From Treponema sp. Marseille-Q4130 (GTDB taxonomy: Bacteria; Spirochaetota; Spirochaetia; Treponematales; Treponemataceae), in NCBI RefSeq assembly GCF_014334325.1, contig NZ_JACSET010000007.1:110685-174684 (forward strand): DNA of 64,000 nt, written 5' to 3'. The stretch's first letter is position 1; each line of letters opens with the position of its first letter. Positions 8,760 to 63,863 of this stretch are shown one piece after another. The position numbers were made by a program, and so were the translations under genes. Below the pieces are notes generated by a model. The model was given only the letters and a program-made list of their open reading frames with translations. It was not told where the DNA came from and did no database searches.

Positions 8760-11207
8760 ATGAAACTCGGCGATATACGCAATTCGATAACGACTCTTCC
8801 GGGCGTCGGGCCGGCGGCGGCAAAGCTTTTCGCAAAATTGAACGTATTTTCCGTAGCCGATTTGCTCACGCTGTATCCGAAACAATACGACGACCGCACG
8901 AAGCGTATACCGCTTTCCGCATTCCGCTCATCGAAAGTGCACTGCGCCGCCATCGTCACTTCCCACGAATGGTTCGGTTACGGCAGGATGAAAACGCTGA
9001 AGCTCATCATCTCCGACGGAGAGGCGGAAGCGGAACTCGTCGCCTTCAATCGGCCGTTTTTGGAAAAACAATTTCCCGTCGGAACGATCATATCCGTAAC
9101 GGGCGCTTTCGATGTAAAATACGGCAAGCTCCAAAGCACTTCATTCGAAATTATTAAATTGAGCGAAAGCGGCGATCTTTCCGATTATAAAAAGACGGCG
9201 CTTCCCGACTCCCGCGTCCTCCCCGTCTATCCGCTCACCGAAGGACTCAATCAAAAAAACGTACGGAAAACGATCCTCGCCGCTCTCCGCGAATACAGCG
9301 CGGGAATCGAAAACGAACTGCCCGATTACATCATGGAAAAGCACAAACTCCTTTCAAAGCGCGATGCGATCCGGGCGGTGCACGCACCCGAAAGCCTTTC
9401 GCAGGCCGAAAAAGCGCGGCGAACGCTCATCTACGAAGAGCTCTTTCATTTTCAATGCGTCATAGCAAAGCGCGCGTGGGAACACAGGGGCGCAGTCCCC
9501 GATGCATCGCTTTCGCTCTCTCCGTTTGAAAATACGGAAGAACGCGGAGCGAAAAACGGAAGCGGAAAAAGCCCTTCCGCCGGCACGGATGAAAGCGGCG
9601 CGGCGGACGGAATATCCGCAGGCAGCATCGCTCCCGAAATCGGAGCGCCCGACGGTGCAGACGGCGGCATATACGACGCGACACGGCAGATATTCATCGA
9701 TTCGCTTTCTCCTCTGCAAAGGGCGCTTTACGATCGCCTCCTGTTCCGCCTCACGCTCGATCAGATGAACGTCATCATGGAAATGGATGACGATCTCGAC
9801 AGGGGCTATCGGGAACGCGAACTCGTCGCAAACGATGAAAAAAAAGCTCCGGCGGAACGCGCGGAAAACGAGCGGCCTCCGGTGTTTACGATGGCGCGGC
9901 TTTTGCAGGGAGACGTCGGATCAGGCAAAACGCTCGCCGCTTTTTTCGCATGTCTTCGCGTCATCAGCTGGAAAGGACAGTGCGCGTTTATGGCTCCGAC
10001 GGAACTGCTCGCCAGGCAGCATGCGGAAAACGCTTCGCGCATGCTCGCGCCGCTCGGCATACGCGTCGCATTTCTCACCGGAAACGTAAAAGCAAGCGGC
10101 AGAGCGGAATTGTTAAAACAGCTTAAAGCGGGCAATATCGACATCGTGATCGGTACGCACGCGCTTTTTTCCGAAGCCGTACAGTACAACGACCTCCAGC
10201 TCGCCGTCATAGACGAACAGCACCGCTTCGGCGTTTTGCAGCGTCAAGCGATAATCGAAAAAGGCAGAAAGATTGCAGGTACTTCGTCCTACACGCTCCA
10301 TCTTTTGATGATGAGCGCGACGCCGATCCCGCAGACGCTCGCACTCACCGCTTTCGGCGACTTGGACGTTTCGCTTTTGCGCACGCAGCCCGAAGGAAGA
10401 AAGGCGGTGAAAACATATCTCGTGCGGGAAGGAAACGAAGCGAACGCATACGAAGCGGTGCGTAAAGAACTCGAGGCGGGACATCAGGCGTATTTCGTCT
10501 ATCCCGCAATAGAAGGCGACGGACGGCAAACGGACGGAGCGGACACGGACGGAAACGGCGACAACATGGAATCCGTCGGATCGGCGTATGTGGGATCGGG
10601 GGCGGAGGCAAAAGCGGCAGGTGCAAAGCGGACGCGGAACGTGCAGTTTCCGCTTTTGTATGCAAAAGAAAAATCCGCAGCAAAGGCGGCGGAAGAGATG
10701 TTCGCGTTTTTATCCGAGCGCGTGTATCCCGAATTCTCCTGCGCGCTCATCCATTCGCGCATCGATGAAGACGAGCAAGTGCGTATTCTCCACGATTTTC
10801 AAAAGGGACGCATACAAGTGCTCGCCGCGACGACCGTCATCGAAGTCGGAGTGGATGTACCGAATGCGACGTGCATCGTCATCGAACGCTCAGACCGCTT
10901 CGGACTCGCGCAGCTGCACCAGCTGAGGGGCAGGGTCGGGCGCGGAGATGCGCAGTCGTATTGCTTTTTGATCTACGGAAAAAACATCACGGAAACGGGG
11001 ATCGAGCGGATGAAAGTATTGCGCGAAAGCACCGACGGATTTTTTATTGCGGAACGGGATTTAAAACTGCGCGGCCCCGGCGAAGTAACCGGAACCGCAC
11101 AATCGGGAGACCTCGAACTCGGCATCGCGGACATCCGCCGCGACGGAGAAATCCTCGTCGAAGCGAGAAACGACGCCTTCGAATATATGCGAAGCGTTTT
11201 GCGCTGA
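8760..11207 (+). CDS. recG: ATP-dependent DNA helicase RecG
   Basis: RecG unwinds stalled forks and Holliday junctions. N-terminal LPGVGPAAAKLFAKLNVFS and an OB-type wedge domain (residues about 60-150) are followed by superfamily-2 motifs: LLQGDVGSGKTLAA (motif I, near residue 385), APTELLARQHAE (Ia), AVIDEQHRFG (DEQH box, near 485), MMSATPIPQTLAL (III), ATTVIEVGVDVPNA (V) and QLRGRVGRG (VI). At 815 residues it is longer than the usual ~690. The surplus is two low-complexity Gly/Ala/Asp/Ser-rich insertions, at about residues 260-305 and 580-625. Start ATG 8760 follows yggT by 3 bases. Confidence 0.95.
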   Translation: MKLGDIRNSITTLPGVGPAAAKLFAKLNVFSVADLLTLYPKQYDDRTKRIPLSAFRSSKVHCAAIVTSHEWFGYGRMKTLKLIISDGEAEAELVAFNRPFLEKQFPVGTIISVTGAFDVKYGKLQSTSFEIIKLSESGDLSDYKKTALPDSRVLPVYPLTEGLNQKNVRKTILAALREYSAGIENELPDYIMEKHKLLSKRDAIRAVHAPESLSQAEKARRTLIYEELFHFQCVIAKRAWEHRGAVPDASLSLSPFENTEERGAKNGSGKSPSAGTDESGAADGISAGSIAPEIGAPDGADGGIYDATRQIFIDSLSPLQRALYDRLLFRLTLDQMNVIMEMDDDLDRGYRERELVANDEKKAPAERAENERPPVFTMARLLQGDVGSGKTLAAFFACLRVISWKGQCAFMAPTELLARQHAENASRMLAPLGIRVAFLTGNVKASGRAELLKQLKAGNIDIVIGTHALFSEAVQYNDLQLAVIDEQHRFGVLQRQAIIEKGRKIAGTSSYTLHLLMMSATPIPQTLALTAFGDLDVSLLRTQPEGRKAVKTYLVREGNEANAYEAVRKELEAGHQAYFVYPAIEGDGRQTDGADTDGNGDNMESVGSAYVGSGAEAKAAGAKRTRNVQFPLLYAKEKSAAKAAEEMFAFLSERVYPEFSCALIHSRIDEDEQVRILHDFQKGRIQVLAATTVIEVGVDVPNATCIVIERSDRFGLAQLHQLRGRVGRGDAQSYCFLIYGKNITETGIERMKVLRESTDGFFIAERDLKLRGPGEVTGTAQSGDLELGIADIRRDGEILVEARNDAFEYMRSVLR

Positions 11208-11286
11208 CGCCCTAAGCTTACCGTGCGAGCGGGAAAAACGCCGGCCGCACATCGGGCGAAACGCCGGCACGGCTCGGGCAAAACGA

Positions 11287-12126
11287 CTATGCGATGTAAG
11301 CTTCGAGGCGCTGCATGCGTCTCGGATGGCGCATACGCACGATGGCGTGCTTTTCGATTTGACGGATGCGCTCTTTGGTAAGATTGCACGTATCGCCGAC
11401 TTCTTTCAGAGACATGGGGCGGGTACCGTTCAAACCGTAGCGAAGCGACAGCACTTTCGCTTCGTTCGGCTTCAGCGTGTTCAGCACGTCTCCGATATCG
11501 CGCTTCATTGCATTCGAAATCGCTTCCTCGTCGGGATTGTCGTAGCGCTCGTCTTCGATAAAATCGCTCACGGACGTGCGGTCGTTGTCGCTCGAAGCGA
11601 CCTGCGCGTCGAGGGAAATCATATCGCGCGAGATATTCACCATTTCGCGCACGTGCTGCTTGTCCATCTTCAACATACGCGCAACTTCGGCGAATTCCTG
11701 CTCTTCGGTTTTATCGCCCGTCATAAGCTTTCGCGCGTGTTCGATCTGCACGAGTTCGTTCGCACGGTTGAGCGGGAGACGAATGGCGCGGCTCTTTTCG
11801 CAGATCGCTTTTAAAATCGCCTGGCGGATCCACCACACCGCGTATGAAATAAAGTGATAGCCCTTCGATACGTCGAATCTGTCGACCGCCGTCAAAAGAC
11901 CGATATTGCCTTCGCTGATCAAATCGGGCAAATCGAGTCCGTGATTTTGATACTTTTTCGCAACGTTGACGACAAAACGCAGATTCGCGTTGACGATTTT
12001 GTCTTTCGCAGCCTTGTCGCCCGCCTTCGCTTTCAGCGCCAAATCGGTTTCCTCGTCGCGCGAAAGCAGAGAAACTTTATTTATATCTTTCAAGTACATT
12101 GAAAGGACGTTTTCATCGTTTGTCAT
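11287..12126 (-). CDS. RNA polymerase sigma-70 family factor, group 2 (RpoS-sized)
   Basis: A 279-residue sigma factor with regions 1.2 to 4 and no long N-terminal extension, so it is not the housekeeping RpoD. Region 1.2 is VLSMYLKDINKVSLLSRDEE. Region 2 holds IVNANLRFVVNVAKKY, LDLPDLISEGNIGLL and the -10-recognition helix HFISYAVWWIRQAI. Region 4 has EAKVLSLRYGL and the helix-turn-helix LKEVGDTCNLTKERIRQIE. ATG 12126 is chosen over the longer frame because GGAGGTG lies 6 bases upstream. The length and domain set match spirochaetal RpoS, which suggests an alternative, conditionally used sigma factor. It appears to have a sigma-54 promoter. Confidence 0.92.
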   Translation of the reverse strand: MTNDENVLSMYLKDINKVSLLSRDEETDLALKAKAGDKAAKDKIVNANLRFVVNVAKKYQNHGLDLPDLISEGNIGLLTAVDRFDVSKGYHFISYAVWWIRQAILKAICEKSRAIRLPLNRANELVQIEHARKLMTGDKTEEQEFAEVARMLKMDKQHVREMVNISRDMISLDAQVASSDNDRTSVSDFIEDERYDNPDEEAISNAMKRDIGDVLNTLKPNEAKVLSLRYGLNGTRPMSLKEVGDTCNLTKERIRQIEKHAIVRMRHPRRMQRLEAYIA

Positions 12127-12169
12127 AGATACACCTCCAAGCCGGCACAAAACCGTATACGTAAATTAT

Positions 12170-12186
12170 TGCAATATCTATGCCAA
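12170..12186 (-). promoter_or_regulatory. Sigma-54-type (-24/-12) promoter of the sigma-factor gene
   Basis: On the minus strand TTGGCATAGATATTGCA. The invariant GG and GC are exactly 10 bases apart, and the flanking TTGGCA and TTGCA match the RpoN consensus. Predicted start is near 12159, giving a 33-base leader with GGAGGTG. A sigma-70 reading of the same stretch (TTGGCA-N17-TACGTA) is much poorer. Confidence 0.65.
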
Positions 12187-12332
12187 TAACGAGGAAGAGG
12201 GAAAATCGTTACGATAATATTTTGTTAGAATCGTACATCATTTTTAATTCTTTATAATACAATAAATTAAAAAAAGATGTTTTTTTATCGTTTCGAATGA
12301 CGATCGATTTTTCTTGACTTTCGGTAACATTT

Positions 12333-12359
12333 TGAGTAAATTTATGTCGAATTTACTCA
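12333..12359. promoter_or_regulatory. Perfect inverted repeat, candidate enhancer/operator
   Basis: Arms TGAGTAAATT and AATTTACTCA with a 7-base centre. It sits about 175-200 bp upstream of the predicted sigma-54 start, the usual distance for an activator site, and also about 95-120 bp upstream of the glycosylase ATG. Confidence 0.45.
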
Positions 12360-12417
12360 CCCTCATAAAAATACACTGAAATTGTGTCATTTTGATACTT
12401 TTTTTATATCGATTTTC

Positions 12418-12446
12418 TTGACGTGCGGAATGCTTGTTATTACTAT
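12418..12446 (+). promoter_or_regulatory. Promoter of the glycosylase gene, abutting its ATG
   Basis: TTGACG (12418-12423), 17-bp spacer, TACTAT (12441-12446), then six bases and the ATG at 12453. No Shine-Dalgarno site is present, so a leaderless transcript is predicted. Confidence 0.6.
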
Positions 12447-12452
12447 ATAAAT

Positions 12453-12986
12453 ATGCACACCGTAAATTCCGCCGCCGCTTCCCGAATCGACCATCCCTTT
12501 GCGCCGGTATACGATTCGAAAAGCCGCGTCCTCGTTCTCGGCACGATGCCTTCTCCGCGTTCCCGAACGGCGGGTTTTTACTATATGCACGGGCAAAACA
12601 GGTTCTGGCCGGTTATCGCCTCTCTTGCAGGAGAAAGGCTCGGCTATGCGAACGATGCGGGAAGCAAAGCCGTCGATGAACGGAGAGCGCTTGTGCTCCG
12701 GCACGGCATCGCGCTGTGGGACGTACTCGCTTCGTGCGATATACGGGGAGCGGCCGACACAAGCATAAAAAATCCCGTGCCGAACGATTTTTCAAAACTG
12801 CTTGTATCGTCTCATATCGACCGTATATATTGCACGGGGCAGACTGCGTATAAGCTCTACACAAAGCTGTGCGAAGAGGCGACACACATAGGTGCCGTAT
12901 GCCTCCCGTCGACGAGCAGCGCAAACCGCGGGCGCTGGCCGCTCGATGCACTGATTGAGGCGTATCGCTGTGTATTTGAGCGGTGA
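12453..12986 (+). CDS. Uracil/hypoxanthine-DNA glycosylase superfamily protein (family 6 type)
   Basis: A 177-residue base-excision repair enzyme of the UDG superfamily. The N-terminal motif VLVLGTMPSPRSR (residues about 27-39) with FYYMHGQNRFWPVI just after is the signature of the hypoxanthine-DNA glycosylase family, which removes deaminated adenine. The C-terminal substrate-binding motif is LPSTSSANRGRWPL. Whether it acts on hypoxanthine, uracil or both cannot be read from sequence. ATG 12453 is chosen because an upstream GTG in frame lies inside the promoter. The DUF1232 gene follows after 3 bases. Confidence 0.85.
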   Translation: MHTVNSAAASRIDHPFAPVYDSKSRVLVLGTMPSPRSRTAGFYYMHGQNRFWPVIASLAGERLGYANDAGSKAVDERRALVLRHGIALWDVLASCDIRGAADTSIKNPVPNDFSKLLVSSHIDRIYCTGQTAYKLYTKLCEEATHIGAVCLPSTSSANRGRWPLDALIEAYRCVFER

Positions 12987-62907: not shown

Positions 62908-63863
62908 TGGCAAAAACATTGCTCGAAGTGCAAAATCTTACAAAATACTTTGCGACTCCCTCAGGTCAGCTCCACGCGGTCGACGGAGTCAATTTCACAC
63001 TCGAAGAAGGAAAAACGCTCGGTATCGTAGGAGAGTCCGGCTGCGGAAAATCCACAACCGGCCGCGTCATTTTGAAACTCATCGAACCGAGCGGCGGCAA
63101 AATCATCTTCGACGGAGAAGATATTACGAAATACAGTCGCAGAAAAATGCGCCCATTGCGCACGCGGATGCAGATGATTTTTCAGGATCCGTTTTCAAGC
63201 CTCGACCCGCGCCAGACGGTTTCGCAGCTCATCGCCGAACCGATCGTCGAACACAAACTCATACGGGGCAAAGCGGCTATTGAAAAACGCACCCTTGAGC
63301 TTATGGAAACCGTCGGTTTGGCAAGCCGCCTTATGAACAGTTATCCGCACGAACTCGACGGCGGCAGACGTCAGCGGATCGGAATCGCGCGCGCGCTTGC
63401 GGTAAAGCCGAAACTCATCATCTGCGACGAGCCGGTGAGCGCGCTCGACGTTTCCATTCAGGCGCAGATTTTGAATCTTTTGAAAAAGCTGCAAAAAGAT
63501 TTGGGACTGACGTACATCTTCATCACGCACAATCTCGCCGTCGTCAAATATTTTTCGGACGATATCGCCGTCATGTATTTGGGGCAGCTCGTGGAAAAGG
63601 CTTCGTCGGACGATATATTCGCGTCCCCGACGCATCCGTACACGAAAGCCCTGCTCTCCGCCATTCCGATCCCGAAAGTGACGAAAGAAAGAGTGCAGCG
63701 CCGCTTGATCCGCGGGGAAGTTACGAGCCCCGTCAACTTGCCCGACGAATGCCGGTTTTTAAAACGCTGCGACGAATGCGACGAAGAGCTTTGCCGCACA
63801 AAAAACCCGGAGCTCAAAGAAATCGCACCGAATCACTTTGTCGCCTGCAGCTGCATCCGCTGA
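62907..63863 (+). CDS. oppF: Oligopeptide ABC transporter ATPase (OppF/DppF type)
   Basis: 318 residues. Walker A GESGCGKSTTGRVIL, Q-loop MIFQDPFSSLDPRQTVSQLI, Walker B IICDEPVSALDVSIQAQ, and a Cys-containing tail (CRFLKRCDECDEELCR). The ABC signature reads LDGGRRQRIGIARAL instead of LSGGQ; the Ser-to-Asp change occurs in this subfamily but may lower ATPase rate. GGGGGAC precedes the ATG within oppD. Last gene of the operon. Confidence 0.95.
   Translation: MAKTLLEVQNLTKYFATPSGQLHAVDGVNFTLEEGKTLGIVGESGCGKSTTGRVILKLIEPSGGKIIFDGEDITKYSRRKMRPLRTRMQMIFQDPFSSLDPRQTVSQLIAEPIVEHKLIRGKAAIEKRTLELMETVGLASRLMNSYPHELDGGRRQRIGIARALAVKPKLIICDEPVSALDVSIQAQILNLLKKLQKDLGLTYIFITHNLAVVKYFSDDIAVMYLGQLVEKASSDDIFASPTHPYTKALLSAIPIPKVTKERVQRRLIRGEVTSPVNLPDECRFLKRCDECDEELCRTKNPELKEIAPNHFVACSCIR

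Follow-up and report, generated by a model that had tools for sequence, protein, structure and literature searches.

The sigma factor gene and its promoter region

The window, that is, the whole stretch of 64,000 nucleotides that was analysed, carries on its minus strand a gene for a small sigma factor, together with a promoter-like element and a set of palindromic sequences upstream of it. The features are located as follows.

11287..12126, minus strand: group-2 sigma-70-family gene, 279 aa (ATG at 12126, stop codon ending at 11287; identified by Pfam and orthologues)
12134..12138, minus strand: Shine-Dalgarno-like GGAGG, 7 bases 5' of the ATG, read from the sequence
12159, minus strand: predicted transcription start, about 12 bases past the GC of the -12 element, placed by sigma-54 promoter geometry
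12169..12186, minus strand: predicted sigma-54 -24/-12 promoter TTGGCATAGATATTGCAA, read from the sequence and conserved upstream of 72 of 74 orthologues
12333..12359, no strand: perfect 10-bp inverted repeat TGAGTAAATT-N7-AATTTACTCA, its upstream arm forming the first bases of the proximal enhancer copy
12343..12359, minus strand: predicted proximal enhancer copy TGAGTAAATTCGACATA, degenerate, score 12.1, 40 bp from the distal copy
12383..12399, minus strand: predicted distal enhancer copy AGTATCAAAATGACACA, two mismatches to TGTGTCAAAATGACACA, found by motif scan

The 279-aa protein contains sigma-70 regions 1.2, 2, 3 and 4, each above its Pfam cut-off, and the group-2 sigma-70 gene of 279 residues proposed in an earlier note on this DNA is thus confirmed by both the open reading frame and the domain matches. 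The RpoN consensus with exact GG-N10-GC spacing which the same note had read on the minus strand is also present at 12186-12169, where TTGGCATAGATATTGCAA carries the exact spacing in a TGGCA/TTGC context and is a single occurrence on that strand. The proteins for which that note had advised a search were found in the genome, with one match for RpoN (E 2.7e-35) and three strong PF00158 matches for sigma-54 activators (seven above cut-off), and RpoN was detected in 234 of 247 genomes sampled across the phylum. A standard sigma-70 scan of 11200-12500 gave three matches, all on the plus strand and none on the minus strand, compared with 1.8 in shuffles. A scan of our own with looser criteria found a single 9-of-12 match in the spacer.

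One alternative is that the -24/-12 match and the repeat are products of chance and that an ordinary sigma-70 promoter drives the gene. Two observations agree with it: the bare sigma-54 pattern with one mismatch shows no excess genome-wide (118+125 matches vs 275+233 in the reversed control), and inverted repeats whose 10-bp arms match perfectly across loops of 3-20 occur at 17 positions in the 64 kb of the window. The sigma-54 motif would not have been convincing by itself, and since the bare pattern is not enriched, conservation was used as evidence instead. The exact pattern has 12 matches in the genome, and by our reading of the open reading frames, four of them precede an ORF without lying in an ORF of the same strand, namely those before the window sigma gene, an HSP20 gene, an RpoS-type sigma gene and a 304-aa ORF. 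The last of these sites (C11:147774-147789) lies directly before its ORF, which has only a sub-threshold match to DUF7939. Another exact sigma-54-type match, TGGCAAAAACATTGCT, is found on the plus strand of the window at 62908-62923, within the start of an ABC-transporter-ATPase-like ORF, and is probably a chance occurrence.

Conservation of the sigma-54 promoter among orthologues

A full-length or nearly full-length orthologue of the sigma gene was obtained from 56 of 59 related genomes, the window genome included. No orthologue was found in G054, and G037 and G043 contain it in pieces only, the 5' piece of G043 carrying both the sigma-54 site and the pair of palindromes described below. GG-N10-GC in a TGGYR/TGCW context lies upstream of all 56 orthologues (50/50 and 6/6). 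Another 18 genomes, drawn partly from this family and partly from elsewhere in the class, widened the set to 74 loci, and the site was detected in the last 160 bp before 71 of the 74 orthologues and at -346 in one more (G018), compared with 0.3 of 74 loci expected from first-order Markov resampling. The conservation of the -24/-12 element among orthologues, which the earlier note had named as a check, is therefore borne out in 56 of 56 cases among the 59 genomes and, once the set was widened, in 72 of 74. In G077 and G089, the GG of the -24 element is changed to AG, while G182 of the same genus keeps GG. The G018 locus holds about 260-300 bp of extra repeat-rich DNA between the promoter and the sigma gene, which looks like an insertion.

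Of the at least 80 loci returned by a scan of named genomes, L152-L156 were examined; the sigma-54 site was present in four of the four close loci among the matches listed (L152-L155, with Breznakiella homolactica included). L156 and L258 (G174), two members of the window sigma clade outside the core set, are without it. Sigma genes that are not orthologues served as controls. When 450 bp before each of the RpoD-type genes L260-L267 were compared with a loose pattern, six gave no match and two only poor ones near -295, and in a group of sigma proteins of 304-336 residues (L317-L321), four had no match and one had a poor match at -373. Among the sampled families of the class Spirochaetia, 11 contain the promoter together with the paired enhancer.

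Judged by this comparison of sequences, the predicted sigma-54 promoter is confirmed as a real, conserved element beyond chance. The sigma-70 alternative is already refuted by the conservation over 74 loci against the 0.3 expected, unless the orthologues were misassigned, and the standard scan also offers it no minus-strand match in the spacer; we regard its probability as negligible.

Paired palindromic sites upstream of the promoter

Upstream of the promoters of most orthologues there are two or three copies of a 17-bp palindrome, TGTGTCA-N3-TGACACA. The two copies in the window are exactly 40 bp apart and lie 174 and 214 bp before the promoter, and the distal one, AGTATCAAAATGACACA, is the sole place in the genome within two mismatches of TGTGTCAAAATGACACA. 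The window pair was scored with a matrix built without the window locus or its nearest relative, its starting consensus having first been spotted by eye in all loci, and reached 27.1, compared with 5.5 for the next pair with a spacing of 39-41 in the window and 18.5 for the best other pair at any spacing of 20-100 bp in the 64 kb.

The matrix had first been built on 50 loci, a circularity which the held-out and leave-out tests address in part. In the held-out test, a matrix trained on 36 same-genus loci was applied to 38 others, some of which were among the 50 loci where the starting consensus had been seen by eye. The pairs detected in these 38 loci (sites scoring >9 and 13-120 bp apart) were spaced at 40 bp (21), 41 bp (4) and 80 bp (3), with no other spacing, while shuffled held-out loci gave 0.05 pairs per replicate. 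Pair scores of at least 20 were obtained in 68 of the 74 loci, mostly 100-250 bp upstream of the sigma-54 sites. In the DNA at hand, groES is located upstream of the sigma gene in 32 of the 74 loci and the neighbour gene of the window in only one; the neighbour varies while the pair stays, and the pair therefore appears to belong to the sigma gene. Palindromic sites at near-whole-turn spacing upstream of a promoter are what characterises a tandem UAS, and we regard the enhancer as a real tandem pair of 17-bp palindromes 40 bp apart, which are predicted activator sites.

The earlier note had placed an inverted repeat at the position of an activator site. The perfect repeat does exist there, but the predicted enhancer is the tandem 17-bp pair, whose second copy the repeat overlaps, and the picture of a single-repeat enhancer had missed the distal site at 12399-12383. 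As one of 17 such positions in the window, the repeat is not distinctive and was rejected as the enhancer in favour of the 40-bp pair.

The candidate activator of the paired sites

The candidate favoured here is a kinase-linked NtrC-type regulator of 452 aa with receiver, sigma-54 AAA+ and Fis-type HTH domains (Pfam), which is encoded together with a PAS-type kinase in the murG operon, outside the window. It has a full-length match of at least 59% identity in 56 of the 59 genomes, and a C-terminal piece in one more (G013). A GAF-type activator has a full-length match (at least 50%) in only 38 of the 59; the other 21, many of which are drafts, all keep the sigma-54 site and 19 of them keep the pair, and the GAF-type protein was rejected as the binder on this distribution. 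The third activator of the genome (L004) apparently lacks a Fis HTH, as judged by eye. In five genomes, a distance of 3-8 kb separates the sigma gene from that of the kinase-linked regulator.

The recognition helix of the kinase-linked regulator reads TL[x]RK in 57 of the 71 genomes where it is readable and TLYQK in all 13 genomes of families f3 and f4, and base 4 of the half-site shifts from G 161, A 42, T 13 to T 18, G 19, A 10, C 1 in f3/f4. In G114 (1,139,633 bases), presumably Treponema pallidum with a sigma factor of the TP1012 type, the helix is TLYLK and the sigma-54 site is present, and no pair was found upstream of the sigma gene. It is TLHNK in f14 and in f7, a family with genomes of 0.9-1.8 Mb which we take to be the Borreliaceae. 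No pair was found before rpoS in f7, and no full-length orthologue of the window sigma gene in the single f14 genome (G293). There are exceptions, as G022 keeps TLHRK without a pair, and G174 (f22) keeps the arginine while its sigma gene is the one noted above without a sigma-54 site. The shift in f3/f4 is probably one evolutionary event, and the covariation of helix and motif as a whole probably amounts to about three.

The motif was also observed at the head of the murG operon in 8 of 14 genomes examined, six of the eight having been picked for having it; unselected heads carried it in two of eight, and the copy is absent in the window genome. At eight loci (L364-L369, L373 and L377), a single copy directly borders the likely start of murG or comes very close to it, which suggests autorepression.

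A second explanation accepts the sigma-54 promoter and assigns the palindromes to another protein, either the GAF-type activator or a repressor that is no activator at all. Such a repressor would suit the genomes where the motif abuts the murG start without a sigma-54 site, and the imperfect tracking of motif by helix in G022 and G174 would then be no surprise. However, a start-abutting position of this kind is also one from which activators of the NtrC type often repress the operon that encodes them, and the pairs at the sigma genes mostly stand at the activator-like distance given above, with further copies before the sigma-54 sites of HSP20 genes. In the main lineages with a changed or missing motif, the helix of the Rrp2-type regulator is different too, and the 21 promoter-keeping genomes without a full-length GAF-type activator, 19 of them with the pair, speak against that protein. 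We therefore consider assignment to another regulator rather unlikely, and hold with good confidence that the paired sites belong to the Rrp2-type kinase-linked regulator, as far as comparison of sequences can tell.

Other motif sites and HSP20 genes

With up to two mismatches, the motif occurs at 100 places in the 59 genomes, compared with 18 for the reversed control. Thirty-nine of these, spread over 34 genomes, precede the sigma gene, three lie within the sigma gene itself and 58 are elsewhere, and 30 of the 58, chosen by hand, were opened. Fourteen of the 30, from 14 different genomes, precede a sigma-54 site and an HSP20 gene, all 14 being confirmed by Pfam, while six are the murG heads already described, two (both in G039) precede a sigma-54 site and an ORF which looks lipoprotein-like by eye, and eight have no sigma-54 site. 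Facing motif copies 43 bp apart are carried by two contigs of G039 (C32:4515-4574 and C150:22455-22514), perhaps a repeated element. The HSP20 gene of the window genome (Pfam) has a sigma-54 site at C12:97511-97526 and two weak enhancer-like copies, scoring 12.3 and 9.1, with a spacing of 23 bp which is also found in G001.

Because the motif and a sigma-54 site stand before HSP20 genes, and in some genomes the motif stands at the regulator's own operon, we infer that the circuit may answer protein or envelope stress; the entire basis of this reading is the HSP20 genes and the groES neighbourhood.

Relationship of the sigma factor to RpoS

In NCBIfam, the best matches of the window sigma protein were to RpoD-like, cyanobacterial-RpoD-like and RpoS models, none of which came near its cut-off. 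TIGR02394 (proteobacterial RpoS) scored 246.9 bits, below its cut-off of 378.7, as did f7 RpoS with 214.2, and TIGR02392 (RpoH) scored 164.1 bits, below 323.1.

The window genome encodes two sigma-70-family genes with RpoN-type promoters. The second one (L066) encodes a protein of 280 aa of the Borrelia-RpoS-type family; its sigma-54 site TGGCATGATATTTGCA lies at C15:148676-148691, overlapping an antisense ORF of 141 aa, and no paired motif was found there. Sigma-54 sites were found for this second family in 14 of the 14 genes read, in four of four f7 genes, in six of eight further tree members and at the window genome's own copy. A search of four f7 genomes detected, beside RpoD, members of the second family only.

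Three phylogenetic trees were constructed, from which a near-duplicate and fragments (L404, L413 and L414) were omitted. Because of their long branches, L274 and E. coli RpoH were excluded from the second and third trees, and L412 was also left out of the third as a test for false joining of two long rows; the RpoS-type protein of the window genome stayed in the same clade without it. In all three trees, f7 RpoS falls within the second family (supports 100/100, 100/99 and 100/99), in clades of 18, 27 and 26 rows, respectively, while the window clade contains 32 rows, including G114, with support 100/99 in the second and third trees. Profile scores give the same division. Against profiles built without them, the four f7 RpoS proteins score 266-271 bits for the second family vs 206-210 for the window's, and in leave-one-out comparisons, the second sigma protein of the window genome scores 291 bits for the second family vs 202 for the window's, and the G114 protein 274 vs 194 in favour of the window's.

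These results bear on a third explanation, according to which the window gene encodes an orthologue of RpoS and the Borrelia Rrp2-RpoN-RpoS cascade itself is present here in a treponeme. The first step is indeed the same, with an Rrp2-type regulator 54-55% identical to that of f7 and a sigma-54 site before the sigma gene, and the distance of 3-8 kb between sigma gene and regulator in five genomes resembles that of rpoS and the regulator in f7. The f7 branch is also long (1.3-1.5 in the three trees), and holding f7 RpoS together with all 32 members of the window clade made the topology 23.6 log-likelihood units worse, with a p-AU of 0.109 that does not reject the joint clade (a run with L156 and L258 outside the held group gave 0.0175 and was disregarded). 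However, the trees and the profile scores both place f7 RpoS in the other family, the window genome has a separate member of that family with a sigma-54 site of its own, and the pair is missing before f7 rpoS. Orthology with RpoS thus appears quite improbable, and the RpoS label of the earlier note is probably wrong, although the p-AU of the joint clade is 0.109. That note had also suggested a comparable RpoN-sigma cascade; a step from RpoN to a group-2 sigma factor does emerge, with rpoN and activators in the genome, but the sigma protein is probably not an orthologue of Borrelia RpoS, so far as the trees and profiles indicate.

Proposed regulatory circuit

The reading preferred here, of an RpoN promoter, an Rrp2-type regulator on paired sites and a stress circuit, is given a probability of roughly 0.8. 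RNA polymerase with RpoN would transcribe the sigma gene from the -24/-12 promoter at 12186-12169. The NtrC-type regulator of 452 aa, which with the PAS-type kinase of the murG operon would represent the orthologues of Rrp2 and Hk2, is predicted to bind at 12399-12383 and 12359-12343 and so to switch transcription on; the 40 bp between the sites correspond to about four helical turns, and the bound regulator would loop to the polymerase. The sigma protein may then redirect polymerase to a regulon of its own, and the signal for the circuit may be protein or envelope stress. Sequence comparison shows the conserved promoter and paired sites, the orthologous relationship of the regulator and the HSP20 links; the binding, looping, signal and regulon are what we infer beyond them.

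The locus would represent a parallel cascade with an intact enhancer, for which a testable pair of activator and sites can be named, and it provides a regulatory setting for a so far uncharacterised sigma factor in the lineage of T. pallidum. It also suggests why the Borrelia activator may need no enhancer. We put forward tentatively, at somewhat below even odds, that Hk2/Rrp2-RpoN was an ancestral spirochaete circuit for protein stress, in which HSP20 and a group-2 sigma factor specific to spirochaetes are turned on through paired enhancers. The enhancer and the arginine of the recognition helix would have been lost in f7 and G114, the lineages with small, host-bound genomes, while enhancer-independent activation was kept, in Borrelia for another RpoN target, RpoS. 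If true, the enhancer-independence of Borrelia would be a relic and not an invention.

Comparison with known systems

Among the matches listed and the passages covered in open-licence literature, neither this cascade nor the motif was described for Treponema, which does not prove its absence. Passages of PMC12316311 list sigma-70/32-type sigma genes (COG0568) among sigma-54-associated genes, and small heat-shock proteins as part of a chaperone cluster which that paper links with Bacteroidota and Planctomycetota; the string 'treponem' is absent from its main text.

In Leptospira, EbpA and RpoN likewise combine a spirochaete RpoN with an enhancer-binding protein at upstream regions, but the targets reported in the passages of PMC12655853 concerned are amtB and two lipoprotein genes, with no sigma factor.

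The rpoH gene of E. coli also encodes a stress sigma factor of the sigma-70 family, and we found a sigma-54-like site at -68 of K-12 rpoH; sigma-54 control of this gene is known regulation. It differs in belonging to another sigma family.

The TP1012-type sigma factor of the presumed T. pallidum genome (G114) shares the clade of the window protein, by trees and profile, and the sigma-54 site; it differs by the absence of a detectable paired enhancer and by the activator helix TLYLK. A proteome table in PMC5015957 lists TP1012 as 'RNA polymerase sigma factor'.

The closest comparison is with Borrelia burgdorferi, where BB0763 is named Rrp2 in a passage of PMC4014564. According to a statement in PMC11109971, rpoS is the only B. 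burgdorferi gene so far identified with a sigma-54-type promoter, whereas at least two sigma genes and HSP20 appear to have one here. The murG-side clusters of the window genome and one f7 genome have the same order and match, apart from one small gene after murG, and the window genome's own regulator and kinase are likely orthologues of Borrelia Rrp2 and Hk2, the former being the likely activator. This brings the Borrelia parallel closer upstream of the sigma gene than the earlier note knew. A cascade from sigma-54 to a second sigma factor is known from the Lyme Borrelia, and the two systems have in common RpoN and an NtrC-type regulator of the same orthologous group, and in both a small sigma-70-family gene stands behind a sigma-54 promoter. 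They differ in the sigma gene, which apparently belongs to another family (on trees and profiles, with the p-AU given above for the joint clade), and in the paired enhancer sites of the treponeme locus. Rrp2 reportedly activates without an enhancer, going by the title of Blevins 2009, and the lack of a pair before f7 rpoS is in line with that. Taken together, the sequences make the locus look like a relative of the Borrelia cascade that runs parallel to it, uses an enhancer and is apparently separate.
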